From positions 1,798,001-1,862,000 of the forward strand of contig NZ_BCNW01000001.1 in the NCBI RefSeq assembly GCF_001571385.1: a DNA stretch of 64,000 nt, in the 5' to 3' direction. The notes under the pieces are model-generated. The model was not told the DNA's origin. It saw only the letters and a program-made list of their open reading frames with translations, and made no database searches. The translations under genes were made by a program, and so were the position numbers. The stretch's first letter is position 1. Every line of letters begins with the position of its first letter. The DNA comes from Methanofollis ethanolicus (GTDB lineage Archaea; Halobacteriota; Methanomicrobia; Methanomicrobiales; Methanofollaceae). Positions 23,526-48,221 of this stretch are shown piece after piece.

Positions 23526-23539
23526 CCATCATATCCTTT

Positions 23540-26404: not shown

Positions 26405-26687
26405 CAGATCTTTTCTCAGAATATTTTTTCCCTTCCCTGGCAGGGACGCTCCCCTGTACGCCCCGGCACAGAGACCGGAACAGAATTTTTCAGACCTGAA
26501 TGTGAGTTATGCCATCGACGTGACCGGGGGTCCTGATCTGTGTTGGGACAACCTCCATGAAAAATGTCAGGGAGTTTCAAAGAACCGCCTGAAATTTCGT
26601 TTCACGAGCGGCCCTACAAAGGCATACTTTTCAAGAACCGAAGACATCAAACATCTTCGGGAAAGGGATTAAGAAAACAGATCCTTG
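26405..26687. other. Intergenic region before the integrated elements
   Basis: No gene seen. It contains a T-rich stretch just after the 25760 gene (TATTTTTTCCC, probable terminator) and an inverted repeat CCGAAGA/TCTTCGG (about 26638-26661) directly before the attachment site. Confidence 0.5.
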
Positions 26688-26709
26688 AAGCCTCAGCCGG
26701 GCTTAACTC
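26661..26709. repeat. Left attachment site (attL) of element 1
   Basis: Holds GGGATTAAGAA (26665-26675) and AAGCCTCAGCCGGGCTTAA. The last part matches the 3' end of tRNA-Thr at 48149. GGGATTAAGAA sits exactly 12 bp before AAGCCTCAGCCG both here and beside the tRNA gene. The junction copy at 34.77 kb shares AGCCTCAGCCGGGCTTAA. Confidence 0.8.
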
Positions 26710-26724
26710 AATATGTTCATATCC

Positions 26725-26748
26725 CCATACACTAATAGGAGTGTATGG
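26725..26748. promoter_or_regulatory. Perfect palindrome over the integrase start codon
   Basis: CCATACACT and AGTGTATGG form a perfect 9-bp inverted repeat with a 6-bp spacer. The second arm contains the integrase ATG (26745). It could be an operator for self-regulation, or an mRNA hairpin that hides the start. Confidence 0.55.
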
Positions 26749-27995
26749 AAGCAAGCGCCAACTATTTCCATGAACAGGGAGAGCCGGGATACTGGGATCA
26801 GCAGTTAAAGAAAGCCGAGGCGGACGGTCGGATTGACAGCCGGGACGCCGCTCTGGTTCGTCGGTACATCAACTACAAACAGGGTGGGCGAGGCATCAGC
26901 CACATGCGGTCCACAAAGATATCTCAGATCCTTGTTTCATGGAAGCAGGTGCTCCCCGTCCCGTGGAGCGAAGCAACGATCGACGATCTTTTTGCTGCCC
27001 GGGTACGGTTGACATCGATGAAAAATTCCCGGGGCCGGCCATACAAGCAGAACACCATCAGCGACCACATACGGATTTTGAAAGGTTTTTACAAGTGGTT
27101 GGCCGCCCGGGGTTACTCAACGATCAGAACGGATGAACTCGCCGAACTCAAACCTCCAGCGACCGACACCGAGACCACCGACCCCGGCGACCTCATGACA
27201 GCGGAGGAACTCGCCGCAATGATCAAGGCGTGCAAGACGCACCGGGACCGGGCGATCATCGCCGTCACCTATGAGACAGGGGCGCGGATCGGAGAGGTGG
27301 CGCGCCTGAAGTGGTCTGATATACAATTCGATAAGTACGGGGTGCGGTGCACGATCAACGACACAAAAGAGCGGAAGAAACGCTATCCCCGCCTGATAAA
27401 TTCTACTGCTTATCTCGCTGCCTGGAGGAACGGGTATTACGGGCCAGCCGCAGAAGGGGACGCATATGTTTTTGTTTCCACGGACGGCGAGCCGCTGAAA
27501 TACCGGGCAATATCGCAGGTGATCGAGCGGGCGGCAGATCGGGCAAACATCAAGAAGCGGATACACCCACACCTCTTCAGGAAATCACGGATTACCGAAC
27601 TGGTCAAAAAGAACTATCAGGAGTCGGTCATCAAGGAAACGTTTTGGGCCAACCCCGACACACAAATGTTTCGGACCTACCTGAAACTGTCGGAAAAGGA
27701 CATCGACGACGAATTTCTCCGGAAGGCGGGGCTAAAGACAGAGAGTGAGATCGACGCGGACGACGACAAGCCCAAGCAGTGTATGTTCTGTCTCGCGGTC
27801 AACCCGCCCGGGTCGCGGTTCTGCCGGATGTGCACCAAACCGCTGACCGCCGAGGCCGCCGACGCAGTCAGGGAAGCCGAGAAGAAGATAGAGGCCACAC
27901 CCGAATATGAATCCCTCCTCGCCGCCATGAAAGAGCAGGTCAGGCGGGAGATGGCGAGCGAGGCGACAGCAGACAGCGCGCCGAAGTCGGTGTGA
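26745..27995 (+). CDS. Tyrosine integrase of element 1 with C-terminal zinc ribbon
   Basis: A 416-aa site-specific recombinase. It has an N-terminal SAM-like core-binding domain (~20-130), then the catalytic domain with ETGARIGEVARLKW (catalytic Arg), HPHLFRKSR (His and second Arg; the usual second His is Lys) and the nucleophile Tyr in MFRTYLKL. A C-terminal zinc ribbon CMFC...CRMC (~345-370) and a helical tail follow, a layout common in archaeal integrases. It lies 37 bp inside the left attachment site, which fits its job of inserting the element at the tRNA-Thr 3' end. It is a homologue of the integrase at 34825. Confidence 0.93.
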   Translation: MEASANYFHEQGEPGYWDQQLKKAEADGRIDSRDAALVRRYINYKQGGRGISHMRSTKISQILVSWKQVLPVPWSEATIDDLFAARVRLTSMKNSRGRPYKQNTISDHIRILKGFYKWLAARGYSTIRTDELAELKPPATDTETTDPGDLMTAEELAAMIKACKTHRDRAIIAVTYETGARIGEVARLKWSDIQFDKYGVRCTINDTKERKKRYPRLINSTAYLAAWRNGYYGPAAEGDAYVFVSTDGEPLKYRAISQVIERAADRANIKKRIHPHLFRKSRITELVKKNYQESVIKETFWANPDTQMFRTYLKLSEKDIDDEFLRKAGLKTESEIDADDDKPKQCMFCLAVNPPGSRFCRMCTKPLTAEAADAVREAEKKIEATPEYESLLAAMKEQVRREMASEATADSAPKSV

Positions 27996-28068
27996 GGAAC
28001 GTATATTAACCCGGCGAGAGACAGTATGTATGTCTTGACACGTCTAACCCGTGTGGAGATGATGAGAT

Positions 28069-28230
28069 ATGGCCCAGAAAATTGAATTAGGTCTCTACCT
28101 GGAAGGCGACGACGCCCGCCGCTTTGAAAAATATATGGCGGACCCCGATCGGTATGACACCCCGGAGGGGCGGGAGATGACCCGCTGGGTAAGCGCCCAC
28201 GGAAAGGAACTGGTAAAGTCCATCCGCTGA
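28069..28230 (+). CDS. 53-aa protein before GNAT gene, possible antitoxin
   Basis: A small acidic/basic protein (MAQKIELGLYLEGDDARRFE...) with a strong ribosome-binding site (GGAGATGATGAG). It ends 38 bp before the GNAT gene on the same strand. It starts with a beta-strand-like KIELGLYL and continues with helices, so it could be a ribbon-helix-helix-like protein, but I cannot show that. Position before a TacT-type toxin candidate suggests an antitoxin. Confidence 0.6.
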   Translation: MAQKIELGLYLEGDDARRFEKYMADPDRYDTPEGREMTRWVSAHGKELVKSIR

Positions 28231-28268
28231 AGTTCCCTTCCCTTTTCTGCCCATTTTGCACGATCACC

Positions 28269-28808
28269 ATGCCCTCAGAGAATCCCGCCACGGATGCCAG
28301 GCTACCGAAGATACCCTTATCTGATCTGTCCTTTGAGCGTCTCACGGGGGACCACGATATCCTGTCCTTTTCCTGCAAACATTCGGAACTGACCGACTAC
28401 CTCGCCTCTGACGCATTGAAAAATCAGGAGGCCCATGTCGCCGTTACCTACCTCGTCATGTATGAAGGGAAGTGCGTGGGGTACTTCTCGCTCCTCAACG
28501 ACAGCATCATCAAGAAGGATATCGATCCCGAGGAGGACAAAGAGTGGTATGCCCATTCCTACTATCCTGCGATCAAGATAGCCCGGCTCGCCACGCACCA
28601 TGACTACGAAGGGAGGGACATCGGGCGGTCCATGCTCACCGTGATCCGGTCGATAGCGACAACCGTGTCTGGGTATTCCGGGTGCTGTGTCCTCACCGTC
28701 GATGCCAAACCCGATGCAGAATCATTTTATGAAAGGTTCGGGTTTCACCGGGCGCTGAAGACCAAAAAGAAGACCACGATACCGATGTATCGCTGCAATA
28801 TTTTCTGA
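28269..28808 (+). CDS. GNAT acetyltransferase, TacT toxin-like
   Basis: A 179-aa GNAT-fold protein. The N-terminal FSCKHSELTDYLASDA matches the F-x-C-x(4)-LDxYL signature of toxin-type GNATs (TacT/AtaT), which acetylate charged tRNA. The acetyl-CoA loop is the segment HDYEGRDIGRSML (R-x-x-G-x-G normally; here GRDIGR), and the C-terminal SFYERFGFHRA carries the catalytic Tyr region. No separate RHH antitoxin of the DUF1778 type is present; the only candidate is the 53-aa protein upstream. It could instead be a housekeeping acetyltransferase. Confidence 0.8.
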   Translation: MPSENPATDARLPKIPLSDLSFERLTGDHDILSFSCKHSELTDYLASDALKNQEAHVAVTYLVMYEGKCVGYFSLLNDSIIKKDIDPEEDKEWYAHSYYPAIKIARLATHHDYEGRDIGRSMLTVIRSIATTVSGYSGCCVLTVDAKPDAESFYERFGFHRALKTKKKTTIPMYRCNIF

Positions 28809-28847
28809 ATATTGTCTGTGTGGGAAGAGCGAGTCGGGAAGCGGGGA

Positions 28848-29873
28848 TCACTGAATTATCTTTTTTCTCATGGTGCCATATTTTCGGTAAAATGCCTGCC
28901 GGCAGGCCGATTTGCCGCAGGTTATTTTATCAGCCCTACCAACGATGAGATCCCCACAGATTGGGCACACTCTTTCTTGCGATACGGCGTTCCTCTCTTT
29001 GCGTAATTCTATGAACTTTCTCTGTTTACACGCTGGCGAACAAAATTTTCTTGATTTGTTGAGTGCAGCGAATACTCTCCCACAAGATTCACACCTCAAC
29101 TTGTAGTAATGGGTTTTATCCACGATATCGGCTTTGACGACCTCACAAAGGCTTTTGTTGATACGTGGGTACTGTGCCGTCGGTCCCGTATCCACGCGCT
29201 CCCAGTTTAAGTACGCTATATGGAGAGAGGTACCGGAGAATGGACGCTCGGAAGGAAGGGGAGGTGCTATACTTTTCCGGAAATTCCACCCCACATAACC
29301 CTCACTTACCCGTTGGAGGATATACCCTGGAGTTGTGGATTCTGGTGCGTGATTCCGAATCTCATCACTCCCTTTTTCAAGTTCCTGCAATATTTTACGG
29401 CGCTGATACTGGGTGTGTTCTTGTTCTTGGAAATATTGGTCACATCTGGGATATACCCTTGATAAGTGGTCTTCCGGGACGGGTCCTGGGCCAAATTGAG
29501 ATACTGTTTCAATTAAGTCCTCGGCTAGTGCTATCATCCCAAGCACGAGTATCACTCTCTGGTGGGCTTCTCCGGTGAAATAATTGTTTATCCCCGGGTA
29601 AAATATCGATAATTGGTCATCTGGGATGTCTTTGAGACCGGATAGACATGCGGTTTCTGTCAAATAGTCGATGTATTCGAGCGATTGGAGGTATTTTTCA
29701 CCAATCGATCTGGGATTCAACACCCACATGAATTCAGGGGGGATAGCATCTCCATTGCAGTACGCCATCTGTGCGGAGAGGGCAGCCGCCCAAAAAAATT
29801 TCTCATACCCAAAATTGGTGTCGACTTCGCATAATTTCGGGTTTATCCTGAATTTTGGAGGACTCTTTCCCAT
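28848..29873 (-). CDS. AT-rich gene for double zinc-finger protein
   Basis: A 341-aa protein of unknown function with two zinc-binding motifs near the C-terminus: CESCGRVF...CSPACKQRK (~264-290, like the CGNR finger) and CPICG...CGKSACRQAFYRK (~305-330). The N-terminal 230 residues show no known domain. The gene is clearly richer in A/T than its neighbours and is on the opposite strand, so it looks like a separately acquired cargo gene. CGNR-like fingers usually bind nucleic acid, so a regulatory or defence role is possible. Its start overlaps no gene; the nearest promoter-like sequence is in the 90 bp up to 29964. Confidence 0.7.
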   Translation of the reverse strand: MGKSPPKFRINPKLCEVDTNFGYEKFFWAAALSAQMAYCNGDAIPPEFMWVLNPRSIGEKYLQSLEYIDYLTETACLSGLKDIPDDQLSIFYPGINNYFTGEAHQRVILVLGMIALAEDLIETVSQFGPGPVPEDHLSRVYPRCDQYFQEQEHTQYQRRKILQELEKGSDEIRNHAPESTTPGYILQRVSEGYVGWNFRKSIAPPLPSERPFSGTSLHIAYLNWERVDTGPTAQYPRINKSLCEVVKADIVDKTHYYKLRCESCGRVFAALNKSRKFCSPACKQRKFIELRKERNAVSQERVCPICGDLIVGRADKITCGKSACRQAFYRKYGTMRKKIIQ

Positions 29874-29963
29874 TATCTTGTTTTTGTGCGCATGTCACAA
29901 TTAATGTTTCGGTAAAATCTATGTTTCAAGCACTTTGTGTATTCTGGAGTATTAATACAGTTC

Positions 29964-30227
29964 ATGGAAATCGAACCGTATTACAACGCGGTCGACGCCG
30001 GCGCAATCCTAGGTGCGTCCCCCCAGACCGTGGGGCGCTGGATTCGCTCCGGCGAACTCCGAGCAACAAAAATCGGGCGGCGCTGGAAAATCAGGGAGTC
30101 CGATCTGGAGGCATTCATCGAAAAAATGGGCCACAACACGGGGGAGGGCAAGCAAGCGCCAACCTGTTCCGCCCCTTCCCCCGGTAACCGACACGCACCC
30201 ATGGAGGGGACGGCCGATGAGTACTGA
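29964..30227 (+). CDS. MerR-like HTH protein (excisionase family)
   Basis: An 87-aa protein with one helix-turn-helix of the excisionase/HTH_17 type: YYNAVDAGAILGASPQTVGR then WIRSGELRATKIGRRWKIRE. Such proteins direct excision or regulate early element genes. I chose ATG 29964 because it begins right at the HTH domain; a longer in-frame start (29937) adds no domain. It overlaps the next small gene by 11 bp. Confidence 0.8.
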   Translation: MEIEPYYNAVDAGAILGASPQTVGRWIRSGELRATKIGRRWKIRESDLEAFIEKMGHNTGEGKQAPTCSAPSPGNRHAPMEGTADEY

Positions 30228-30399
30228 TACCACTCAGGCAGTTATCAATCCGATCGTCTCCATCGATCGCGAGGTCTACGAACATCTTTCACCCCTCCAC
30301 CGGGCCGCTGCCGATCTCATGATCTCTCACGGGACCTGCAAAATCGTGGGGGAGGCCCGGGCGTGCCATAAAAACCTTCCTGCCGGGGGGATCAAATGA
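30217..30399 (+). CDS. 60-aa hypothetical protein before SF3 helicase
   Basis: A small protein (MSTDTTQAVINPIVSIDREV...) with no known domain. It overlaps the HTH gene before it by 11 bp and the helicase gene after it by 4 bp (ATGA), so it is translated with them as part of the replication operon of element 1. Confidence 0.6.
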   Translation: MSTDTTQAVINPIVSIDREVYEHLSPLHRAAADLMISHGTCKIVGEARACHKNLPAGGIK

Positions 30400-32444
30400 G
30401 CGGAACGGCATTTCTCCTGCCCGAAAATCGGGCGGCCCTTATCATCCGGGGTTCGGGTTTCGACACCTTGGCAGCACTGAACAGTGTCAGTGATCCATGG
30501 ATATCTGAAATCCGGTCGGTTCTTACTTCCCGGTCTGCCCAACGCCATGGGACGATCAACGATGTGCCCCATCTGTGGGTTGGCCTTCAGGTCGCACCGC
30601 CGATAAGCGATCGGGCTGCACCAGGACCAGGCATCGAGATCGCACCCCCAGGTGATGAGATCCTTCTCACCGACGACTTGGCAGACGAGTGGACACGGAC
30701 GATCAAGACCGGCAAGTCGATCCCGGCCAGTCCGATCAGAAAAAACAGCCTCGACCATTTCATTCAGTGGGTTCACGAGCGGGCTGAGGTGCAGCAACAA
30801 CAAAAACCTATATCTGAAGAGCACCCCGCAGCGACGGAGGAGAACCGCCCGATCATCGACGATGAAGCCATTGACCGCGCCGACGCTCATGCTATTGCAT
30901 CGGTGCTTCGGTTAAATCGGCTTAATGTTCCCGATGACTTCGAATCTCTTCCCATCGACAAGGCCCGGGCCCTCGCAAAACAAATCACCCGAAGTCCAGA
31001 GGCACGCACAGCAGCCGAGGCCCTCAGAGAAGAAGAACGGCGGGCGAAGGAGAAGCGCACCGAGAGAGACCGTTACCCGTCATTTGCGAGGCGGTCGGAT
31101 AAGGGTGTCCGCCTCGATAACGCAGCGGTTGGTGCGTATATCCGCGAACGTCTGCACGCTCTGACGTTTAACCAGCGTCTCTTCATCTACGACCGGACAA
31201 CCGGGCTGTACGTGGAGGACGCGGGGCAGGTCGGTAGCCTGATCCAAGAGATTGCAGAAGTGGTCGAGTTCAATGGGTCTATTACCTCTGCAAAGCGTGA
31301 AATCATGTCTTACATCCGGGATCACAACATTGCCCCCGAATATCCCTTCGACCATTACCCAAATGCCTTGCCCCTGGCAAATGGGGTTCTTGAAATCAAT
31401 TGGGATACGGAAATCGCAACACTGTGCCCATACTCCCCGGAACACCGTTTCACACAGAAATGGCCCGCTACCTTTGACGCCAGCGCGGACCCCAAACCGA
31501 TTCATGAGGTTCTACGGCAGTATGTTGATGATGAGGAGGTGTTTGCCCTTCTTCAACTCCCTGCGCAGGCGATCCTGCACTTCTGCGGTTTCGGTCCTTT
31601 CAAAAGGTCGTACATCTTTGAGGGTCCTTCAAACGGCGGCAAATCCACCTATCTGGTGGACCTCTTAAACCGGCTTTTCGGTGCTGAAAACATCTCAGGT
31701 GCAAGCCTACAGGCGATCGGGAGGGACCGTTTTGTTACATCTTCGATCGGATCGGCCGTGATCAACCGATGCGATGACCTTTCAGACGTGCCTGTTGAGA
31801 ATGTCGGGCCGTTCAAGGCGCTGACTGGGTCCTTTTCGCATGACATTGAGAAGAAGTTTCAGACGCCCTACCGGAGCCGGGTGACCGCCGTACACGCCTT
31901 CAGTACAAACGCACCCCCGACGGTTCCAGACAACGTACTCTTTGATGCGGCATTCTGGAGTCGGTGGGTCTATCTTCGGTTCAACAACGTCTTCGAGGTG
32001 GACCCCGGATTTGTCTCCCGCACCTTCACCCCTGCGGCGATCGCGGGACTTTTCAACGAAGTTCTGAAGGTCGCGTTTGAGATCCGTCGTAATGGTCGCC
32101 TTCTCTATGAACAGGACCCCGGCGAGGTTCGGGCAGTCTGGCAGAGTGCCGCCAATCCGTTCCAAAAGTTCGTGAGCGAGGAGATGCTGAGCACCCAGAA
32201 CCCTACTCTCTTTGAGAAGGGGCAACTCCTCCGCGCCTTCCGGGCATGGTGTGGGGCGAACGATATCAACCCCCGGAAACTCCCGAGCACGATCACCGGC
32301 TTCACTCAGATGATCTATGCCTCTGGTTTTACGACCACTCGTAGAGGCTCAAAAAATGAGCAGGAGTGGAAATATGAGGCCCGGTACACCTGGAAAGCAA
32401 ATAGTCGATATCAAAAGAGCGCGGAGGGGATCGGGAGCATATGA
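30396..32444 (+). CDS. D5/P4-type SF3 primase-helicase of element 1
   Basis: A 682-aa replication protein. The N-terminal 210 residues are weakly conserved and may hold a degenerate primase domain. Then comes a D5-N-like region (~240-390) and the SF3 helicase core with Walker A EGPSNGGKSTYLVDLL (~410), Walker B-like NRCDDLSD, and sensor motif AFSTNAPP. A C-terminal winged-helix-like domain follows (KFVSEEML...RAFRAWCGAN). This family loads on origins of plasmids, P4-like satellites and archaeal viruses, so the element likely replicates autonomously when excised. Iteron-like repeats lie directly downstream. Confidence 0.88.
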   Translation: MSGTAFLLPENRAALIIRGSGFDTLAALNSVSDPWISEIRSVLTSRSAQRHGTINDVPHLWVGLQVAPPISDRAAPGPGIEIAPPGDEILLTDDLADEWTRTIKTGKSIPASPIRKNSLDHFIQWVHERAEVQQQQKPISEEHPAATEENRPIIDDEAIDRADAHAIASVLRLNRLNVPDDFESLPIDKARALAKQITRSPEARTAAEALREEERRAKEKRTERDRYPSFARRSDKGVRLDNAAVGAYIRERLHALTFNQRLFIYDRTTGLYVEDAGQVGSLIQEIAEVVEFNGSITSAKREIMSYIRDHNIAPEYPFDHYPNALPLANGVLEINWDTEIATLCPYSPEHRFTQKWPATFDASADPKPIHEVLRQYVDDEEVFALLQLPAQAILHFCGFGPFKRSYIFEGPSNGGKSTYLVDLLNRLFGAENISGASLQAIGRDRFVTSSIGSAVINRCDDLSDVPVENVGPFKALTGSFSHDIEKKFQTPYRSRVTAVHAFSTNAPPTVPDNVLFDAAFWSRWVYLRFNNVFEVDPGFVSRTFTPAAIAGLFNEVLKVAFEIRRNGRLLYEQDPGEVRAVWQSAANPFQKFVSEEMLSTQNPTLFEKGQLLRAFRAWCGANDINPRKLPSTITGFTQMIYASGFTTTRRGSKNEQEWKYEARYTWKANSRYQKSAEGIGSI

Positions 32445-32471
32445 TTTATTCCAAAATTCGTATGCAGGTAT

Positions 32472-32560
32472 CTAAGATATCCAACATTTTTCTAAACCTT
32501 ATACGCGATAAAGAATATTATAGAGAGGGGGGATATCTTGGAAAAAGTTGGATATCTTGG
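32472..32560. repeat. Iteron-like repeats after the SF3 helicase gene
   Basis: GGATATCTTGG occurs twice in direct orientation (32531-32541 and 32550-32560). An inverted match, AAGATATCCAACATTTTTC, lies at 32474-32492 and pairs with GAAAAAGTTGGATATCTT (32541-32558) with one base missing. The DNA between them is AT-rich. Such repeats next to a replication helicase are typical of origins or autoregulatory operators. Confidence 0.55.
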
Positions 32561-32597
32561 ATGCGGGAGGATCGCATAAATCCCACAGGGGCATAAA

Positions 32598-32732
32598 ATG
32601 CAGCCCCATCAATGCCATGACTGTGGTGGCACCCTCAAACGCGTCCCCGGTGGTCGGTATTGCTTCCGGTGTGGTCGGTACGTATCGTGGTCCGGTAGGG
32701 TCCGACCGTCGCCCAAACTCCAGAAAATGTGA
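32598..32732 (+). CDS. 44-aa zinc-ribbon protein
   Basis: A tiny protein with a single zinc ribbon (C6-x2-C9 and C22-x2-C25, in CHDCGGTLKRVPGGRYCFRCG) and a basic tail. Small zinc ribbons are common in archaeal viruses and plasmids and often bind nucleic acid. It begins right after the iteron-like repeats. Recognised by its cysteine pattern. Confidence 0.6.
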   Translation: MQPHQCHDCGGTLKRVPGGRYCFRCGRYVSWSGRVRPSPKLQKM

Positions 32733-32813
32733 GAGGGCGGGTAATTTCCCCCAGTCCCCCCCCCCCCCAACTCGCTTTTTTCCCTTAACCATCCCCGCCA
32801 TCAGGATAAGCCC

Positions 32814-33146
32814 CTATCTCCACGTTTGGACCCTGAATTCTCGACGACGGCCAGCCCTCGCCCAATACGTGCGAGAGGCCAGGACGCGGACCCGCACCCC
32901 ACGCGCGGGAGTCTGATAGGCAGAGCGCACGAGCCAACCCGATATAGAGAGTCGCGCACCGAGGGAGACGATCCCGAAGTGGTCCGCAACCATCGCCCCC
33001 GTGATCCACACAGGACCAGGACCGGCCTCGGTAGCGTCCAGGTAGTCCCGAACCAGATCAGGGACCAGCCCCCGGCGATGACGAGCCAGGGCAACAGAGG
33101 ACAGGCCAGGGATGTGATCGGTGTACATTACGGCTATTTTTGTCAT
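32814..33146 (-). CDS. Hypothetical basic protein, possible HTH
   Basis: A 110-aa basic protein (MTKIAVMYTDHIPGLSSVAL...). The segment WITGAMVADHFGIVSLGARLSI could form a helix-turn-helix, and the C-terminus is Arg-rich. It lies downstream of the terminator hairpin of the membrane-protein gene on the same strand. Overlapping frames are also open, so this is a tentative gene. Confidence 0.4.
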   Translation of the reverse strand: MTKIAVMYTDHIPGLSSVALARHRRGLVPDLVRDYLDATEAGPGPVWITGAMVADHFGIVSLGARLSISGWLVRSAYQTPARGVRVRVLASRTYWARAGRRREFRVQTWR

Positions 33147-33156
33147 GATAACACCA

Positions 33157-33181
33157 GGAAAAAAGGGGGGACAATCCCCCA
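33157..33181 (-). terminator. Hairpin with T-tract after the membrane-protein gene
   Basis: On the minus strand GGGGGATTGTCCCCCC is followed by six T residues. It is an intrinsic-type terminator about 80 bp after the stop codon of the gene at 33260-33625. Confidence 0.55.
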
Positions 33182-33259
33182 GAACCCCCGAAGGGGTGAC
33201 CGGCCACAGGTCGGAGGGTTTGGCTGGTAATCGGCGGCATCACAAGAAGAAGTGGACCC

Positions 33260-33625
33260 CTACTGCCCTCCCTGCGCAGGCCTCATCCTCATGATGGCAA
33301 AGATCACGAGGGACAGGATCGAGACCATCACGGCAAGGATCAGCAGACTGGAGGTCTGAGTCCAGATTTCCGCCCCGGTCGTCATGTCGGCGTTGGTGGT
33401 GGAATTCCACTGAGAACCCGCAGGAATGCTGACGCTGTTATCAATGTTGAACCCGATTACAGGCGCAATCGAGAAAACGGCCACAAGGGTGATGATTCCA
33501 ATTGCAGTACCGGTGACGGCATCGATCATGCCGAAACCGTCGTCGTTCAGGAGAATAGAACGCTGTTTCGCTTCAGCCCATGCCTTCAGAGAGACACAAG
33601 CCCGGAGAACCGATTCAAGAGCCAA
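33260..33625 (-). CDS. Two-TM membrane protein, possible virion protein
   Basis: A 121-aa protein with two strong membrane helices (TGTAIGIITLVAVFSIAPVI, ~38-58, and SSLLILAVMVSILSLVIFAI, ~91-111) separated by a polar Thr/Asn-rich loop, with a charged N-terminus. This layout resembles the small membrane/capsid proteins of pleolipo- or spindle-shaped archaeal viruses, but there is no motif that proves it. It has its own strong terminator, suggesting high expression. Alternatively it is a holin-like or other membrane protein of a conjugative plasmid. Confidence 0.6.
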   Translation of the reverse strand: MALESVLRACVSLKAWAEAKQRSILLNDDGFGMIDAVTGTAIGIITLVAVFSIAPVIGFNIDNSVSIPAGSQWNSTTNADMTTGAEIWTQTSSLLILAVMVSILSLVIFAIMRMRPAQGGQ

Positions 33626-33669
33626 TTGTTCATTATCACGCTCCGATGATCAGACAATGGATGCCAAAG

Positions 33670-33679
33670 CATATATTTG
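33670..33679 (+). promoter_or_regulatory. TATA box for the gene at 33701
   Basis: CATATATTTG about 25-30 bp upstream of ATG 33701, in the gap between two divergent genes. The spacing suits a very short leader, although AAGGGAG before the ATG is also a good ribosome-binding site. Confidence 0.45.
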
Positions 33680-33700
33680 TTTTGCACATAAGGGAGATAA

Positions 33701-34132: not shown

Positions 34133-34513
34133 GGCACGCAAGCCCTCTCCCTGTCAGATCAAAGGGGAAAAGGGAAACTTTTCAACTATATAGGGGGCCC
34201 CATGAACAATATCGGTCCGCGTGCCCACTCCCCGTTAACCAATAGAGAGACGCACACGATCGCTGCCGCCCACCGCCGTTCAGCATGTCGATCGAGAGAA
34301 GGTATCATAGGTGACGGCGGGGCGACTGTATCCGAAATCTCAACTGTGGGACGACAGAGGGCGGTGTCCCAGGGCATATGAGTAACGAAGATAAGGCAAC
34401 TATAGGGGACAGAATAGGGAGCCACCACAAGAGATCTATAGTCGCTGAAAATTGCTTCTTTTTGAGTAACCCGAAAGGGATATTATGACGGGGCGAACAG
34501 AGAGTGTTGATAA
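34133..34513. other. Gene-poor stretch in element 1
   Basis: No gene that I can support. Two similar AACTATA-GGGG motifs occur (about 34184 and 34397). Open frames on both strands are short and lack domain signatures. Confidence 0.4.
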
Positions 34514-34812: not shown

Positions 34813-34824
34813 CATTACCCTTAT

Positions 34825-41160: not shown

Positions 41161-41471
41161 TGACCGATTCAGCACCCAGAACTGCCGCCGGGACATTCGC
41201 GTCCGAAAGGGAACCCGGCAAAGCTCTTGAACGGGACGAGCTCGCCCGAATGCTCTCCGATGTTCTGAAAAATCTTCACGGCCGATTGACAGCCCCGCGT
41301 TTCAAGACGAAGAAGGCCGACAGCGAGATGTTGAGTATGGCGAGGGTGTTTGTCCAGGCGATCACGGCCCTTGACGGTCTGATCAAGAACTCAGAACTCC
41401 AGGAGATAGAGCAGAGGTTATCGGCCCTCGAAGAACCGATAAAAGAACGAGAAAAGCCAAACAGAGCGTGA
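41160..41471 (+). CDS. 103-aa helical protein after primase
   Basis: A small, mostly helical protein (DVLKNLHGRLTAPRFKTKKA ... EIEQRLSALE). No family recognised. Its ATG overlaps the primase stop by 1 bp, so it belongs to the same operon. A single-strand-binding, loader or structural role cannot be distinguished. Confidence 0.6.
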   Translation: MTDSAPRTAAGTFASEREPGKALERDELARMLSDVLKNLHGRLTAPRFKTKKADSEMLSMARVFVQAITALDGLIKNSELQEIEQRLSALEEPIKEREKPNRA

Positions 41472-41475
41472 TAAG

Positions 41476-41997
41476 ATGAGATCGTTAAACAAAAGGATGG
41501 AGAAAGTGGAGGACAACCTAAGCCCCGAAAAGACCGCCGGGTATCTGAAATCTCTGATACGGCAGGTAGCAGACACCGACGACCCCGCCGAAGCCGCCGC
41601 ACTCCGGCGCATAGCATCTCGCGTCGCACGATGCGAGACGGGGGAGAAGGCCACCAGAGTAAAGGAAATTCTCATTGACGGCGCGGTGTCCGCCATAGCA
41701 CGCGAGATCTTCTGTGCAAACATGAATGTCGTCGTGTGGAGGGTTCGGTACTGGAAAGCCCAGCTTGAAAAGGCCGATATCCTTCTGGCAGTAGCAGAAG
41801 AGGCCGGACATGCCGAAGCAGTGACCCGTGGTAAAGAAACCCGAAAAACGCTTGCCCGGGGACTGGATCAAGCCGTCCGGGACCTCACTGACACCATCAA
41901 TGCCCCCGAGTGGGACGATGCGGGGGTGGAAGTCCCCGAGGTTCCTGAAGACCTCGCCGACATGATACCGGCACGCCCCCGAAACGAAGGCCGATGA
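41476..41997 (+). CDS. 173-aa helical protein of unknown function
   Basis: Almost entirely alpha-helical, acidic at the C-terminus (VEVPEVPEDLADMIP). The middle contains IFCANMNVVVWRVRYWKAQL. No family recognised. It lies between the replication operon and the tail genes; it could be a head-tail or regulatory protein. Confidence 0.6.
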   Translation: MRSLNKRMEKVEDNLSPEKTAGYLKSLIRQVADTDDPAEAAALRRIASRVARCETGEKATRVKEILIDGAVSAIAREIFCANMNVVVWRVRYWKAQLEKADILLAVAEEAGHAEAVTRGKETRKTLARGLDQAVRDLTDTINAPEWDDAGVEVPEVPEDLADMIPARPRNEGR

Positions 41998-42042
41998 ACA
42001 CCCCGCCGGCAGGGTCACGCCGGCACACCAAGAGATGAGAGT

Positions 42043-42309
42043 ATGAAACAGACCCCCTGTATAATTGATCTCACGACGGACGAGAATGCCGCCACGATCG
42101 CAGCAGAGTATCAGAACGCCGCCGCGGACTTCGAGATTGCCCGGAAGTCCATCGGAGAGATCGTAGCCGACTGGCACCCCGAACTCGAAGAGCAGGTAAA
42201 CCGAGCTTCGCAGAGTTTCGGATCGCAGCTCAAAGAACTCTTCCCTGGTGGGGAGGGTATACCCCCACTCGAACGGCCCATGTATAACCCTCTGGAGGTG
42301 CGGAGATGA
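42043..42309 (+). CDS. 88-aa hypothetical protein before tail chaperones
   Basis: Starts MKQTPCIIDLTTDENAATIA and contains a helical middle (EYQNAAADFEIARKSIGEIV). Its end overlaps the next start by 4 bp. A role in tail assembly is possible by position only. Confidence 0.55.
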   Translation: MKQTPCIIDLTTDENAATIAAEYQNAAADFEIARKSIGEIVADWHPELEEQVNRASQSFGSQLKELFPGGEGIPPLERPMYNPLEVRR

Positions 42310-42647
42310 TCCAGGACTTCTCGATCTTCGTCCCCGACCCCGTGACCCTCCGGATCGGTAGGGCTAACCAGGTCAAGGACCTCGACCTCTCCGTTATCCC
42401 GGCGAAGTCCAGCCTCAGGATCATCCACTTTTACGAGGAGAAGGACGGGAAGGACGCAACCTCTGAGGAGGTCGTGAACCTTGCCGCCGGCGTCCTCCAC
42501 GACATCGACCCCGGCGTCACTGAAGAGTGGCTGTGGAAGAACTACAGCCTGCGCGATCTCACGAGGATCGCCACCTTCGTCCTTGAACGGGCAGCGACCC
42601 AGGAAAGCGCCACCCCGGCCACAGGAGAGGCCGCAAAAAACGTGTGA
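42306..42647 (+). CDS. Tail assembly chaperone, upstream frame (gpG-like)
   Basis: A 113-aa protein directly before the second chaperone frame and the tape measure, the position held by gpG in tailed viruses. It has a beta-strand N-terminus and a helical C-terminus (EEWLWKNYSLRDLTRIATFV). The last codons are GCA AAA AAC GTG TGA, which contain the heptamer A_AAA_AAC. It is assigned as a chaperone from position, size and the frameshift signal, not from direct sequence identity. Confidence 0.7.
   Translation: MIQDFSIFVPDPVTLRIGRANQVKDLDLSVIPAKSSLRIIHFYEEKDGKDATSEEVVNLAAGVLHDIDPGVTEEWLWKNYSLRDLTRIATFVLERAATQESATPATGEAAKNV
42623..42641 (+). promoter_or_regulatory. -1 programmed frameshift site: slippery A_AAA_AAC with upstream AGGAG
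   Basis: The heptamer AAAAAAC (42635-42641) is in the X_XXY_YYZ phase of the first frame, two codons before its stop. AGGAG (42623-42627) lies 7 nt upstream of it, the position where a Shine-Dalgarno stimulates slippage in bacterial dnaX. A -1 slip leads directly into the frame that starts at 42644. AGGAG is 16 nt from that GTG, too far for normal initiation there. Confidence 0.75.
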
Positions 42648-42961
42648 TCGAGCTTGGGAGGATTGTCGCACGGATGGGGCGCACCTACGGGTGGACCCCT
42701 CGGCAAATCCTTTCCGAGCTCAGTCTCGGACAGATGGCAACCCTTCACCGATATGCCCAGGAGATGGACGGATTGATCCCTCGTAAGATCGACAACGGGC
42801 CAGACGCGGACGCGTTCGGGAAGCATGGGGATGATGGACCGGACGTGGACGCGATCGAGGCCCGGTATGGCAGCATGATCAAGCGGCAAACCGCAGAAAC
42901 ATTCGATGTCGCGACGATCGAACGGATCACCGGACTGAAAGTGAAGCGAGGCAAAGCATGA
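42644..42961 (+). CDS. Tail assembly chaperone, downstream frame (gpT-like)
   Basis: A 105-aa frame that can be read as the T part of a G-T fusion after a -1 slip at 42635, or from GTG 42644, which overlaps the upstream stop (GTGA). The segment YGWTPRQILSELSLGQMATL is like the G-W-x-P-x-E/Q-I-x-x-L pattern of phage T domains. The fusion protein would run from 42306 to 42961. It ends at the tape-measure start. Confidence 0.7.
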   Translation: MIELGRIVARMGRTYGWTPRQILSELSLGQMATLHRYAQEMDGLIPRKIDNGPDADAFGKHGDDGPDVDAIEARYGSMIKRQTAETFDVATIERITGLKVKRGKA

Positions 42962-45300
42962 CCGAAGAGGTAATCAACAGGCTCGTCGTGGAGATCGTCG
43001 GCGACTCGTCCGGCCTTGTCTCCGCATTCGACGAGGCCGCAAAAGTTTCCACGAATTTTGAGGATCGTCTGAAAGCGGTCGGATCGAGTTTCACCCAGAC
43101 CGGAAAGGACCTCACTCTTACGGTCACGGCCCCCCTCGCCCTCGCAGGTGCAGCCGCCCTGAAGATGGCCGGGGACGCAGAAGAGACGCAGAGCAAGTTC
43201 AATACCGTCTTCGGAGAGATGGCCGCCGATGCCGAAGCGTGGGCAGATAAGTTCGGCGGTGCCGTCGGCCGATCCCGCACCGACTTGAAGGCGACGTCCG
43301 CCACCTTCGGTGACATGCTCCAGGGCATGGGTGCGACCCGTGAGGAGTCCCTGAAACTCGCGGAGGCCATGACACAGCTCGGTGTCGATATCGCCTCTTT
43401 CTCGAACTCCACAGACGAGGAGGCGTGGATCTCCCTGAGGTCTGCCGTAACCGGCGAATATGAGGCGATGAAGAAGTACGGCGTTGTCCTCAACGAAGCC
43501 GCCGTGAATCAGGAACTTCTCAACATGGGTGTCGCCGGCGGGGCCGCCGAGGCCACAAACGCCGAGAAAGCACAGGCTCGCCTGAACCTGATCATGCAGG
43601 CGACCACAAACGCCCAGGGCGACGCCGAGCGAACCGCCGGGTCGTTCTCAAATCAGATGAAGGCCCTCACCGGCGACCTGAAGGACGTGACCGAGGAACT
43701 CGGGGCCGAGCTGATCCCCCTCGCCCAGGACGGGATCGCCCTCGCCCGTGGGGGTCTGGAGACCTTCAAGAACCTCGACGACGGGACAAAGAGGATGGTC
43801 GTCTCCGTCGCCGCCCTCGCTGCCGCCACGGGTCCTGCTCTCGTCGTGGGAGGGAAAATGCTCACCCTCGCCGGCGACACATCCGTGGCGTACAAGAAGT
43901 TCCACGTCCTCCTCGATGAGAAGGTCATCCCCGGCCTGAAATCGCAGATCGCACAGATGAAGATCGCCGGCAGCACGGCCCGCGCGACCGCCCTCTCGAT
44001 GGGGGTCCTTGCAGCAGCCACAGCGGGACTTGCAGCGGGGATAATCCTCACAAACCGCTACATTGACGAGGCCGAGGAGAAATCGAAGCGTTTGAAGGAC
44101 GCGATCGACGCCCTCGCCGACTCGTCCGGCCACTCGTCCGAGGAACTCCGCGACCTCGCCCGCAGGCTCCGGGAGGGTGCAGACGCCTCGCAGTTTTACG
44201 CGTCGGCCCTGAAGTCGATAGGCTCCCCGATGGCAAACGTAAACGCCGCCCTCGGCGTGATGACCCCTGAAATGAACAAGGCGAGCCAGGAAACCCGAGA
44301 TGCTGGTGCCGACCTCCTCGAGTACCGGGCAAACCTCCTGGACTTTGCATCGGCGGCAGAGGTGAGGATGCGCGATGTCACGGCGACCTACGAAACCCAC
44401 CGCACGAAGGTCGAAGAACTCAGAGGTCAGTACGACGAGTTGAAGACCTCGATCGATCGCGCCCTCGGGATCGAGGAGGACATCGACGACCAGAGCCGCG
44501 CCGTGGAGAGGACCGAGATCCGCAAGATCCGGGCGGATCGGGATCTCAAAGACCTCGAAGACGAGATCGCCGAAAAAGAACGGGAGATGGCCACCGGGGA
44601 GTATGGCAGCATCGACGAGAGGGAGAAGGCCGAGGAGGATCTCGCCGACCTCAAGCTCCGACACCGGGAGGCGACCCTGAACCTCGCTGACGCCGAGGAC
44701 GCCCTTCAGGACGCACAGGAGAGATCAAAGGACCTTGCCACAGAGAAAGCGGCCCTGGAAAAGAAGCTCGGCGATGAGGGGGTCGAAGGGGCAAAGAAAC
44801 GCCTCGAAGAGATCGGAAAGACCCTCGAAGACGAGACCGCCAAGATGGATACCGCCTACAAGGAGCGGGAGGACCTCAGGCTGAAGCATGACAGCGCTAT
44901 GCTGGAGTTCGACAAAACAACCCTCCAGACGACCGTGGAGAACTGGCAGAAACTCGCCAAGTATTACCAGGACAACCCGATCGTCCGCACTGTCGGGGTT
45001 CAGGTTGCAGGCGAGGACGGCAGCGTTCAGATCTTCGTCCCCGAGGCCCCTGCTTTGAACTTCACAATGCCGGACTTCGGCAACCCCTACGCCGACACCA
45101 AGGGTGCAAACGCGGTGGCCCCAGTCGCCACCCCTACCGCAGCGGCCCCCTCCCACAACGAGACGGTGTTGGTAAGCAAGAAGGGGGACGTCGTGATCGA
45201 GAGCATTGTGGTGAACTCCCCGAAGGCGGATGCAAGCACGATGGTGTATGAACTGCGGAGGACCATGCGGGATATGTACCGCGAGAGTACAATGGGGTGA
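42958..45300 (+). CDS. Tail tape measure protein
   Basis: A 780-aa tape measure protein of the TP901-like family. The N-terminal part carries the phage TMP signature (LTVTAPLALAGAAALKMAGD ... SKFNTVFGEMAADAEAWADK). Hydrophobic helices follow (~275-360). Then comes a long charged coiled coil (~455-650, with blocks such as EIAEKEREMATGEYGS) and a Thr/Ala-rich end. By the phage rule of roughly 0.15 nm per residue it would set a tail of about 115-120 nm; that is an inference. It overlaps the chaperone frame by 4 bp. No tail tube, baseplate or head genes follow. Confidence 0.9.
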   Translation: MTEEVINRLVVEIVGDSSGLVSAFDEAAKVSTNFEDRLKAVGSSFTQTGKDLTLTVTAPLALAGAAALKMAGDAEETQSKFNTVFGEMAADAEAWADKFGGAVGRSRTDLKATSATFGDMLQGMGATREESLKLAEAMTQLGVDIASFSNSTDEEAWISLRSAVTGEYEAMKKYGVVLNEAAVNQELLNMGVAGGAAEATNAEKAQARLNLIMQATTNAQGDAERTAGSFSNQMKALTGDLKDVTEELGAELIPLAQDGIALARGGLETFKNLDDGTKRMVVSVAALAAATGPALVVGGKMLTLAGDTSVAYKKFHVLLDEKVIPGLKSQIAQMKIAGSTARATALSMGVLAAATAGLAAGIILTNRYIDEAEEKSKRLKDAIDALADSSGHSSEELRDLARRLREGADASQFYASALKSIGSPMANVNAALGVMTPEMNKASQETRDAGADLLEYRANLLDFASAAEVRMRDVTATYETHRTKVEELRGQYDELKTSIDRALGIEEDIDDQSRAVERTEIRKIRADRDLKDLEDEIAEKEREMATGEYGSIDEREKAEEDLADLKLRHREATLNLADAEDALQDAQERSKDLATEKAALEKKLGDEGVEGAKKRLEEIGKTLEDETAKMDTAYKEREDLRLKHDSAMLEFDKTTLQTTVENWQKLAKYYQDNPIVRTVGVQVAGEDGSVQIFVPEAPALNFTMPDFGNPYADTKGANAVAPVATPTAAAPSHNETVLVSKKGDVVIESIVVNSPKADASTMVYELRRTMRDMYRESTMG

Positions 45301-45327
45301 GGGTCCCCTCCTCCATTTGATTATTTC

Positions 45328-45666
45328 TCAGCGACGGCCCCACCGCGTGAAATCCTCTTCTAACCAGGGGCGTTCATACCACATCTGCAGCTCATAGTAA
45401 ACCTTGACCTCCCCTATGGGGTCAGGGTCGGAGCAGGCGGCGATCCGGTATCGGTCGTGGGCTCCATCGTATTCAAGGACCGTCATCAGATGCGTTTCCG
45501 GGGATGAGTTCAGGTACTTGTGGGCCACGATAAGATCGTCGGTCTGAAACAGAGGATGCGGAACCAGAAGCGCCCACCCCGCAACGAGGGTTACAAGGGC
45601 GCAAAGGACGATCGCGAGGACGGGGTATGCTCGATTCATATATCGGGGAATGTGCTCCTCGGGCAT
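45328..45666 (-). CDS. Single-TM surface protein of element 2
   Basis: From the Met before PEEHIPRYMNRAYPV this is a 112-aa protein with one TM helix (PVLAIVLCALVTLVAGWALL) and an outward domain of about 75 residues containing VLEYDGAHDRYRIAACSD and WYERPWLEED. It resembles the lipoprotein encoded next to it at 45754. A longer start (45714) is possible. Function unknown; superinfection exclusion or surface display are options. Confidence 0.6.
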   Translation of the reverse strand: MPEEHIPRYMNRAYPVLAIVLCALVTLVAGWALLVPHPLFQTDDLIVAHKYLNSSPETHLMTVLEYDGAHDRYRIAACSDPDPIGEVKVYYELQMWYERPWLEEDFTRWGRR

Positions 45667-45753
45667 ATATGATAATCGGCGGGGGTGCGACCATCTTCTC
45701 ACCGGGCGAAACACCCCTAAAAAAGAATTGGATCGGTGCTCCTAGGGAGAGAC

Positions 45754-46083
45754 CTACAATCTAAGGGTGATCATTTTGAGATCGTCAATATCTACATGCC
45801 CTAATTTGTATTTATAAATCATTTCAGCACAACTCCTATCCTCCCACGTTTTCGTATCTATATCTGCCCTCATCCACCGACCCAATCCATCGCGGTGAAT
45901 AAACGTTATAAAATATTGATCTAACGTCTCGTCGTAGTCAAGAACCACATATGCTACGTCCTGATATCCATCTTCAAAAGAGATAACATCTCCGGGGTGG
46001 TATTTTGCCTTGGAGAGCCCCTCGCACCCCCCGACAAGGATTGCAGATATTAAGAGAATGCAGAAAACAAATTGCGCCTTCAT
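45754..46083 (-). CDS. Small lipoprotein of element 2
   Basis: A 109-aa protein with a lipoprotein signal peptide (MKAQFVFCILLISAILVGGC, lipobox ending at Cys20) and an outward domain (YVVLDYDETLDQYFITFIHR, TKTWEDRSC). The pattern [VL]-x-[LE]-YD-x(3)-D-x-Y-x-I is shared with the neighbour at 45328, so the two are probably paralogues with different anchors. Temperate elements often express lipoproteins that block superinfection; that role is inference here. Confidence 0.65.
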   Translation of the reverse strand: MKAQFVFCILLISAILVGGCEGLSKAKYHPGDVISFEDGYQDVAYVVLDYDETLDQYFITFIHRDGLGRWMRADIDTKTWEDRSCAEMIYKYKLGHVDIDDLKMITLRL

Positions 46084-46154
46084 AAAAGGCTTTTATCATC
46101 ACAACGGCTGAAAAATATTCCTATTTGGGATTCCAGGATCTAGGGATAAGGGGC

Positions 46155-46337
46155 TCACGCCCCGTCTTTTATCTTCGAGACGATCAGACGGAAGTGATCG
46201 ATGTCAATCTCGATTGATACCTCCTCCCCCTCCTCAAACGGGAACTGAGAGTCTCCTACAACCGCCGACGGGATCGAGAGATATTTTGTCTTTGCGCGAC
46301 CCGCCGAAACCAGGCGGCCCTTTCCTTCGGTGACCAT
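46155..46337 (-). CDS. AbrB-like 60-aa DNA-binding protein
   Basis: A short protein, MVTEGKGRLVSAGRAKTKYL then SIPSAVVGDSQFPFEEGEEV, with the KxxLxIPxxVxxDxxFxFxxGEEVxI pattern of swapped-hairpin AbrB/SpoVT regulators. I chose ATG 46337 because the extra N-terminal residues of the longer frame are outside the fold. It is divergent from the gene at 46426 and the gap between them holds repeated TTACAC/GTGTAA sites that it could bind. Confidence 0.65.
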   Translation of the reverse strand: MVTEGKGRLVSAGRAKTKYLSIPSAVVGDSQFPFEEGEEVSIEIDIDHFRLIVSKIKDGA

Positions 46338-46402
46338 TACACTGTATATTACACCGTAAAGTATATATGCATGCCTGCCATACATTGTATTGTACACGTG
46401 TA
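46336..46402. promoter_or_regulatory. Divergent control region with repeated TTACAC/GTGTAA sites
   Basis: ATTACAC occurs at 46336-46342 and 46348-46354, 12 bp apart, followed by the palindrome TACACGTGTA at 46393-46402. TATA-like AAGTATATAT lies between them (46358-46367). The first site overlaps the start of the AbrB-like gene. Confidence 0.5.
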
Positions 46403-46425
46403 AAACACACAGAGGATTGAGACAG

Positions 46426-46899
46426 ATGATGACACAGACAGGAAAAATCACCCGGGCTCACGAGGCCCTGAGGATCGAACTTGAAGCGCGGCCAGGGGAG
46501 TATCTCGTGGTCGGCGCGTCGGATGCCCGAGAACTCGTCGCCACTGGCGCAACGGTCCCCCTCTACCAGATCATCAGGGGCGACGACGTGGACATCGTGC
46601 AGGAGGCCGGGACCGCGTACGGGACGAAGACAGGGAAGGGGATCGCCCTCCACATCACGACCGGCCTGCCGGTCGTCCCGACCATGTATGCAAGCCGGGC
46701 AGCGGTGGAAGCGGTGCACAGGGGCGCACGGACCACCGCACCGGTCAGCGCCCCCGAGGACCGCCCCGCTCACCAGCAGGAGCCAGCGAAGAGGACCGAC
46801 GCGTGGGACTCGTCCCGCCTGAAGCGCGGCTTTGGTGATGCGGCCAACCCACCGAGAGGAGGAGGAAGGCCCGCGCCCTCCCCTGTGATCGTGGTGTGA
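46426..46899 (+). CDS. 157-aa hypothetical protein of element 2
   Basis: A protein with a compact N-terminal alpha/beta domain (HEALRIELEARPGEYLVVGA ... YQIIRGDDVDIVQEAGTAYG) and a Pro/Arg-rich disordered tail. An AGAGGA ribosome-binding site precedes the adjacent ATGs. No family recognised. It is divergent from the AbrB-like regulator. Confidence 0.6.
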   Translation: MMTQTGKITRAHEALRIELEARPGEYLVVGASDARELVATGATVPLYQIIRGDDVDIVQEAGTAYGTKTGKGIALHITTGLPVVPTMYASRAAVEAVHRGARTTAPVSAPEDRPAHQQEPAKRTDAWDSSRLKRGFGDAANPPRGGGRPAPSPVIVV

Positions 46900-47208
46900 G
46901 CTCACCGCCCCCGATGACGACTCTGCCCGGGGTCTGAGGGAGCATCAAACCTGCCCAAACCTCAAGTGTGAGAAAATGTCTGGAACGACGGCGACTCTGC
47001 CCGACCCCCTGCCCCGTCCCGGGGCATAAATACGGAATACTGCGGAACCGAGGCGGGGACCGCACCCCGCCCCCTCTTTTCTGGCGCCGACACCGCGCTT
47101 ATACCGTGCGTACGCGTTGTGCTAACCGCGTCGACGCGGTGGATCAACTGCACCGACAAAGATCGAAATCTTTTACCCCTCCCGAACATGGAGGAATGAG
47201 GGAATCCA
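46900..47208. other. Gene-free 309-bp stretch
   Basis: No gene seen. A GACGACTCTGCCCGGG-like motif occurs twice in similar form (about 46916 and 46988). A good ribosome-binding site (GGAGGAATGAGGG) for the next gene is at its end. Confidence 0.4.
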
Positions 47209-47805
47209 ATGGTGGAGTTAGATCTCGATATCAGTATTAATCTGGCCATTAATACGAAGAAAGAAGAATACGTCCCGTTTCTCGTAACGGGGGGAAAATG
47301 CACGGAAATCCTCACCATGGTGTGGGTACATAATCGGGATGCTTTTGCCGACCGGATCGCGTTCGCCGGCCGATTCGGGGCTTCCACGGTTTCAGTTCAC
47401 AATGGCATATCGTGGCTGGGTTTCTCCGGACCTGCTCCTTATGGATGGGAACCGTGCCGGGAGACGTTCTTGGGGTATGAATATTATTATTCCAATGTCA
47501 GGAATTACGAACCATCTGATCCAGAGATCAAAACGGAGATCGAGTCGCTATCTCATTTGTACGATCGGGATGATCTGGCTCAATTTATCGACTGTCCTGT
47601 AACCCTCGACGAGGAAGATATCATCCGTCCCCCGTACTTCGAGAGGGTGGGCACCTCATATGTGCTCTGGATCTCAAAGGCGGATGTCGCCGCAGGGTAT
47701 CGACCCCCCGGTGAGTCGCGGCAGTTGAAGATGTCTGAATATTGGGATATGGTGGAGCAGATCGGGGCACCTGGGGAGAGCGACCCGCCATATCAAGCCG
47801 CCTGA
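47209..47805 (+). CDS. 198-aa hypothetical protein at the right end of element 2
   Basis: A mixed alpha/beta protein, acidic, with aromatic-rich blocks (GWEPCRETFLGYEYYYSNVR). No family recognised. It has a strong ribosome-binding site and stands alone near the attachment site, a usual place for cargo genes of integrated elements. It might be an exclusion or defence gene, but nothing in the sequence proves it. Confidence 0.6.
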   Translation: MVELDLDISINLAINTKKEEYVPFLVTGGKCTEILTMVWVHNRDAFADRIAFAGRFGASTVSVHNGISWLGFSGPAPYGWEPCRETFLGYEYYYSNVRNYEPSDPEIKTEIESLSHLYDRDDLAQFIDCPVTLDEEDIIRPPYFERVGTSYVLWISKADVAAGYRPPGESRQLKMSEYWDMVEQIGAPGESDPPYQAA

Positions 47806-48148
47806 GGTTTGAATACAAATCATTCGGCGCGACAGCAGATGCGCGCAGATGGCCGCAAGCAGGGCGTCGGGTGTGATTCATCGCCCCCTGCGGCACGACG
47901 ATCTGAAGGCCGTGAGAAACGAAGGAAAATACATATTTCTCCCGGGGCATGGGGGGTATGTGCAGATACCCCGGGCAACAGCGGAATGATCGCACCGGCC
48001 CCAAAAACATGAAGTTTTGCAGGCGATTCGATGAACGGAGACAAACGCACACCCCGCCGCACTCAGAAACCTTGCAAAACTTTGCCCTTAGAAAAGAGGC
48101 CCAATTTGGGCGTATTTTTTATGTGGGATTAAGAACTCACGTTCTTTA
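47806..48148. other. Non-coding DNA next to the tRNA-Thr attachment site
   Basis: No convincing gene. AGTTTTGCAGG (about 48012) and CCTTGCAAAACT (about 48072) form a spaced inverted repeat. Near an attachment site these could be integrase arm-binding sites. Confidence 0.4.
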
Positions 48149-48160
48149 AGCCTCAGCCGA
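48130..48160. repeat. Right attachment site within tRNA-Thr 3' end
   Basis: GGATTAAGAA, 12 bp, then AAGCCTCAGCCG, matching the left site in sequence and spacing. The second part is the 3' end of the tRNA-Thr gene, which stays intact at this end. Confidence 0.8.
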
Positions 48161-48221
48161 GATTTGAACTCGGGACCTTGTCCTTACCAAGGACACGCTC
48201 TACCAGCTGAGCCACTGAGGC
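48149..48221 (-). tRNA. tRNA-Thr (anticodon GGT)
   Basis: The 73-nt minus-strand sequence folds with acceptor stem GCCTCAG/CTGAGGC and discriminator T. The D arm is GCTC/GAGC, the anticodon stem TGTCC/GGACA with loop TTGGTAA, and the T arm CCGAG/CTCGG with TTCAAAT. Anticodon GGT reads Thr codons. No CCA is encoded. Its 3' end is the integration target of the two elements. Confidence 0.96.

Follow-up and report, generated by a model that had tools for sequence, protein, structure and literature searches.

Two integrative elements in tandem at a tRNA-Thr gene of Methanofollis ethanolicus, one of them a candidate virus satellite predicted to build chimeric tails

What occupies the 21.5 kb beside the tRNA-Thr(GGT) gene of the archaeon Methanofollis ethanolicus, one mobile element or two, and how might its contents spread? 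The locus lies in a stretch of 64,000 nucleotides (the window; NCBI RefSeq assembly GCF_001571385.1, contig NZ_BCNW01000001.1, positions 1,798,001 to 1,862,000 of the forward strand), for which an earlier note had described two integrated elements in tandem. Our comparisons support two separately acquired elements of 8.08 kb and 13.38 kb, namely element 1 (8083 bp; 26689..34771, +) and element 2 (13377 bp; 34772..48148, +), both bounded by attachment (att) sites. That note's two elements stand; the tail chaperone and tape-measure block of element 2, and with it the satellite-like character of this element, had been missed. We estimate at about 0.62 the probability that both elements use one attB and that element 2, as a satellite, exploits head-tailed viruses, with chimeric tails as the predicted outcome, a reading drawn from sequence comparison and analogy.

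The tandem is delimited by three copies of AGCCTCAGCCG, at 26689, 34772 and 48149, the places (26.69, 34.77 and 48.15 kb) where tRNA-Thr-derived sites had been noticed previously. The third copy is indeed the 3′ end (attR) of the intact target gene, tRNA-Thr(GGT), called by ARAGORN at 48149..48221 on the minus strand. AGCCTCAGCCG, the exact 11-bp core of all three sites, takes in the discriminator base and the acceptor stem and reaches three bases into the T stem, and the outer two sites agree over 12 bp. The first two sites, attL (26689..26706, +; core AGCCTCAGCCG plus GGCTTAA, with the native tRNA trailer to its left) and attM, the junction of the elements (34772..34789, +), share the exact 18-bp AGCCTCAGCCGGGCTTAA, as had been claimed. 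This 18-mer occurs nowhere else in the window, where 0.02 matches with up to 3 mismatches are expected by chance, and its degenerate form AGCCTCAGCCGRGMTT is found at 3 places in the 2.71-Mb genome, the first two sites and the tRNA only. The extra length of the 18-mer over the core comes from GGGCTTAA, which both elements have on their integrase side, and not from further identity with the tRNA.

Beside each of the first two sites lies an integrase gene, encoding integrase 1 (416 aa; 26745..27995, +; PF00589, E 2.6e-26) and integrase 2 (413 aa; 34825..36066, +; PF00589, E 8.1e-24). Both are Phage_integrase proteins with sub-threshold zinc-ribbon matches and visible CxxC pairs, and at 33-34% identity they are homologous yet diverged, all in agreement with the previous description; the open reading frames (ORFs) start 38 and 35 bp after the 18-mers, as against the 36-37 bp reported earlier. 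An integrase gene beside one end, flanking direct repeats derived from the tRNA 3′ end and an unoccupied site in relatives (see below) are the hallmarks of a tRNA-targeting integrative element with a tyrosine integrase, and all three are present here. The host genome has a third related integrase (L031, C1:596858-598006; 39% identical to integrase 1), the start of which lies ~110 bp away from a tRNA-Ser 3′ end.

Congeners lack the 21.5 kb altogether. In G005, the left flank of the window (10871-26469, 96% identical) and the right flank (48126-50220, 93%) lie on one contig, separated by only ~300 bp of largely unmatched intergenic DNA. G010 is similarly contiguous across the site at 86-91% identity, with nothing inserted, and G008 carries the tRNA with the same native trailer on a contig that ends ~118 bp further on, which is consistent with, though not complete proof of, an unoccupied site. 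In four further congeners (G001, G003, G006 and G007), the 10 to 18 kb covered contain no att copy on the left of the tRNA. In these four genomes (loci L036, L035, L038 and L037, respectively), a block made up of the tRNA-Thr gene and a xylose-isomerase-like gene is inverted relative to its neighbours compared with the window, G005 and G010. Outside the elements, ~960 bp at 9900-10880 of the window are absent from G005 and comprise several modules with matches at 111 places in the host genome, often as pieces of 100-280 bp in varied order; they represent an abundant family of interspersed repeats.

The sequence GGGTTAAGAAAACAGATCCT..AAGCC beside the tRNA in G005 and G008 matches the flank left of 26689; hence this flank is chromosomal, and the copy of GGGATTAAGAA at 48125 is an arm of element 2 itself. 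As the earlier note had stated, GGGATTAAGAA precedes the core by 12 bp at either outer end; the two copies are nevertheless not one repeat, the left lying in a chromosomal flank that is near-identical in G005 and G008 and the right belonging to element 2. The idea that GGGATTAAGAA marks both ends of a single 21.5-kb unit was rejected, the left copy being native trailer in the relatives. The broader notion of a single composite element with an internal att-like repeat is very improbable: it would fit the observation that no genome was found with exactly one of the two elements, but two full integrases are present, members of element 2's family are found alone, with their own att pair, at tRNA-Thr and tRNA-Phe in other species, and the replication genes of the two elements, which have none in common, sit in separate elements elsewhere. 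No congener carries the 21.5 kb as one conserved unit. The unoccupied sites of G005 and G010, the diverged integrases, the separate replication genes and the single occurrence of element 2's family all favour serial acquisition over duplication, as proposed from the sequence of this locus before. In the simplest order, element 1 would have arrived first, followed by element 2 at the tRNA-proximal site.

The arms of the att sites offer a possible view of the recombination itself. In 10 of the 11 elements examined, the sequence left of the right-hand core pairs, inverted and in the same register, with the sequence after the integrase-side core, with scores of 9-20 that only 0 to 15 of 300 shuffles reach. 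Element 2 has the order GGGATTAAGAAC-tcac-GTTCTTTAAGCC-[TCAGCC]-GGGCTTAAGGAAAC-gaa-GTTCCTAAGCCC, in which the right arm (GGGATTAAGAAC-tcac-GTTCTTTAAGCC; 48125..48152, +) and the integrase-side arm (GGGCTTAAGGAAAC-gaa-GTTCCTAAGCCC; 34782..34810, +), both read from the sequence and pairing in inverted orientation, would provide four half-sites flanking six central bases in the acceptor stem. Element 1 departs from this pattern, with a score of 4 that 300 of 300 shuffles reach (right arm, window 34712-34771), and its right arm may have decayed; element 2 is accordingly predicted to excise more readily. This arm resembles the G010 trailer at 18 of 21 bases left of the core, and that trailer pairs with the integrase-side arm of element 1 with a score of 9. 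Lost elements may have left the trailers of unoccupied sites behind as scars, or the arms may mimic trailers. Because of the resemblance to the G010 trailer we also considered that the middle site might be native flank and element 1 displaced; arms belonging to this type of integrase are trailer-like in any case, which makes the assumption superfluous. We propose that two unrelated elements successively used the same attB at the 3′ end of tRNA-Thr(GGT), that each integrase recombines within the acceptor stem, about TCAGCC, between inverted arm sites, and that each element would restore the tRNA end while bringing its own trailer.

With respect to the function of element 2, the most telling feature is a block of tail genes. 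A G-like tail assembly chaperone (42306..42647, +), indicated by homologues directly before the tape-measure gene in head-tailed viruses and by a predicted fold that resembles tail chaperones, contains in phase the slippery heptamer A AAA AAC (42635..42641, +), at a distance of 13 nt from the end of the stop codon. A -1 frameshift there would lead into a T-like extension (42644..42961, +), followed by a tail tape measure protein of 780 aa (42958..45300, +; phrog_1533, E 2.6e-17) that is 44% identical over ~70% of its length to the annotated tape measure (820 aa) of the Methanoculleus virus Blf4. The two ORFs before the tape measure are homologous to and collinear with those in eight viral contigs, including a Methanogenium cariaci provirus that has portal, protease, major head protein, head closure, tail terminator and distal tail genes. 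All nine loci (element 2 and the eight viral contigs) have the heptamer in the zero frame and at this same distance of 13 nt, where slippage into the -1 frame fuses both chaperone ORFs; in Blf4 and in one related element (L186, see below) it occupies the identical place. This layout, a pair of tail-chaperone ORFs linked by a frameshift ahead of the tape measure, follows the well-known G/GT arrangement. For the first chaperone ORF, AlphaFold gave a model with a mean predicted local distance difference test score of 72, and in a BFVD fold search tail assembly chaperones rank 1 and 3 (probability 1.00, E 4e-3 and 2e-2), although no match there passed E 0.001 and a PDB search gave nothing significant. 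In the M. cariaci provirus (L097/L147), the tape-measure gene is broken up between two reading frames, and two ORFs likewise share the match to the major head protein, so that this provirus may be decaying.

Apart from this block, element 2 carries integration and replication genes of its own. A 338-aa replication-cassette protein (36940..37956, +), with a homologue beside UvrD and primase in another element (L167), precedes a UvrD-type helicase (38129..39967, +; PF00580, E 1.5e-20; phrog_1967) and a DnaG-type primase with a toprim domain (39964..41160, +; PF08275, PF13362). Scans of the element 2 ORFs against Pfam and PHROGs gave no head or tail family beyond the chaperone and tape measure, that is, no detectable capsid, portal, terminase, tube or baseplate gene, and no hub gene was recognised. 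The major capsid, portal and large terminase genes expected of a Caudoviricetes provirus are not found in element 2; head genes are present in the M. cariaci provirus and a large terminase in Blf4. The ORFs of five viral or proviral loci match element 2 only in the chaperone and tape-measure block, and integrase 2 has no match in the viral contigs. A 154-aa protein after the primase, kept in several elements, was aligned and considered as a possible small-terminase remnant. Own integration and replication genes and the lack of a full set of virion genes, both seen in element 2, are characteristic of virus satellites.

Element 2 is absent from the congeners, and its family reaches beyond Methanofollis, as related elements of 8.8-16.5 kb occupy tRNA-Thr(GGT), tRNA-Thr(TGT) and tRNA-Phe(GAA) in other genera of Methanomicrobiales; the named relatives are Methanoculleus, Methanogenium and a Methanomicrobiaceae. 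G009 has one element at tRNA-Thr that combines an integrase of the integrase 2 type and an element-2-like right arm with an element-1-like primase. In G011, a 6.6-kb element beside tRNA-Thr is preceded by an att copy and by remnants of another element (integrase C-terminus, 53-aa gene and GNAT), making this a second species with a comparable tandem, one partner of which has decayed. Three elements at tRNA-Phe, L093, L095/L096 (with attL on the second contig) and L186, each encode a tape measure together with a primase and an integrase of the integrase 2 type; neither capsid nor portal genes were found in them. L186 (G153:C58, 287-16743; att copies 16.5 kb apart) has an integrase, methyltransferase, primase, large terminase (apparently in two ORFs), tail chaperones with the frameshift site and tape measure, which makes it a second candidate satellite, of a richer type. 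In a tree of 14 tape measures, the proteins of the four elements do not form one clade, at least 3 changes between element and virus fall on well-supported branches, and the L095 protein is nearest to the M. cariaci provirus. This scatter points to repeated capture of tape-measure genes, to be read with caution on account of the long branch of the window's protein.

The element L167, at tRNA-Thr(CGT), combines an integrase of the integrase 1 type with the 338-aa/UvrD/primase cassette of element 2 and lacks a tape measure, a mixture which shows that modules are exchanged. It also lends some support to a quite improbable alternative, that both elements are integrative plasmids making no use of a helper, the tail genes being incidental cargo. 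Element 1 would fit this description, with its integrase, a GNAT acetyltransferase (28269..28808, +; phrog_1758), a helix-turn-helix (HTH) protein of the HTH_17 family that is a candidate excisionase or regulator (29937..30227, +) and a D5_N/DUF5906 primase-helicase as replication protein (30396..32444, +); however, four elements carry a tape measure, and L186 has a large terminase besides. Element 1, which is absent from G005 and G010, also encodes a 341-aa protein with a zinc-binding C-terminal part (28848..29873, -; weak HNH-like PHROG match) and an HTH_38 regulator (33701..34132, +). It looks plasmid- or satellite-like; no tail or head gene was found in it, and lacking any detected virion gene it was set aside as a satellite and left as plasmid-like.

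Several observations weigh against reading element 2 as a satellite. L093 and L095 have a tape measure with no recognisable chaperone, although the missing genes are less certain since the L093 sequence begins within its integrase gene and that of L095/L096 is spread across two contigs. Long branches occur in the tape-measure tree (element 2 with L094), and no relative of the tape measure occurs elsewhere in the host genome, so that no resident helper is known. Moreover, helper dependence, excision and particles are predictions from the sequence. Finally, element 2 could be a decaying head-tailed provirus with the chaperone and tape measure as leftovers; these genes are of viral origin and decayed elements exist at such sites, as the G011 remnant testifies. 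We nevertheless regard decay as unlikely: the 780-aa frame and the frameshift heptamer are intact, as are the integrase and replication genes, and the same small-element layout recurs in other genera with different tape-measure lineages.

Thus, we favour a satellite that would integrate and replicate on its own genes, probably take head, tail tube and baseplate from a helper virus that packages it, and supply its own tail assembly chaperone, with the -1 frameshift, and tape measure, to yield particles with a chimeric tail. Conceivably, these two proteins could instead poison the tail assembly of the helper as a form of interference or defence and form no part of a virion. Satellites and defences are known to act against tail assembly (PMC11364771, PMC12987554), but the known inhibitors Tai and Rta are not full tape measures, and both chaperone frameshift products are kept, as assembly needs; this alternative, too, appears improbable. 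A defence island was likewise dismissed, PADLOC having returned only generic UvrD/GajB matches (the helicase) and a weak IetA match (the HTH protein). Towards the tRNA end, the element family conserves a module that in element 2 comprises a small AbrB-like protein, its fold recognised by eye (46155..46451, -), and a partner gene (46390..46899, +).

The closest parallel is offered by the phage-inducible chromosomal island-like elements (PLEs) of Vibrio, satellites that encode a tape measure, chaperone and hub protein and whose tail proteins enter chimeric tails, as described in 2026 (PMC12987554). Like element 2, PLE11 of Vibrio cholerae is integrated and encodes its own replication proteins along with a tail assembly chaperone and a tape measure; it takes its other structural parts from the helper (PMC12987554), a use that for element 2 is predicted from the genes. 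Element 2 differs in its archaeal host, in having no recognised baseplate hub gene and in a siphovirus-like rather than contractile tail source. The likeness is one of gene content and implies neither membership in the PLE family nor common integrase or replication genes. The same study states that no other satellite had been reported with a tape measure and then presents putative ones in PLE-like elements and in capsid-forming phage-inducible chromosomal islands (cfPICIs), some of which carry putative tmp genes (PMC12987554, Ext. Data Fig. 10). Phage-inducible chromosomal islands of bacteria, including cfPICIs, are, like element 2 as interpreted here, small integrated islands depending on a helper virus; cfPICIs encode capsids, whereas element 2 has none detectable. 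Blf4 (MZ171369; PMC8540584), a complete lytic head-tailed virus of 37 kb with a 125-nm tail, has the same chaperone, frameshift and tape-measure block, the only part of such a virus present in element 2; it is in culture and related to the probable type of helper. Scaled from the 820 residues of its tape measure to the 780 of element 2, a chimeric tail would measure about 119 nm.

Tandem genomic islands at tRNA genes (compare the Islander database, PMC4383910) are a familiar outcome of tyrosine integrases acting serially on the same tRNA 3′ end, and the present tandem differs from them only in cargo. The tandem insertion is accordingly an ordinary phenomenon, in which one tRNA gene serves as a repeatedly used landing site. 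Less ordinary is the candidate archaeal chimeric-tail satellite: in the open-licence literature we found no archaeal satellite with a tape measure. There is perhaps an even chance that Methanomicrobiales harbour a whole class of satellites at tRNA genes that repeatedly captured tape-measure genes (in two cases with the frameshifted chaperone) from head-tailed viruses and build chimeric tails on helper parts, convergent with the bacterial PLEs. If the interpretation is correct, element 2 makes do with just two tail genes, those required to fit a borrowed tail with an inner ruler of its own, and archaeal tailed viruses would gain a satellite class testable with a cultured virus type such as Blf4. 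Satellites that replace the tape measure of the helper were first reported in 2026, in bacteria; an archaeal class recurring in several methanogen genera would suggest that exchange of the tail ruler is a general strategy of satellites.

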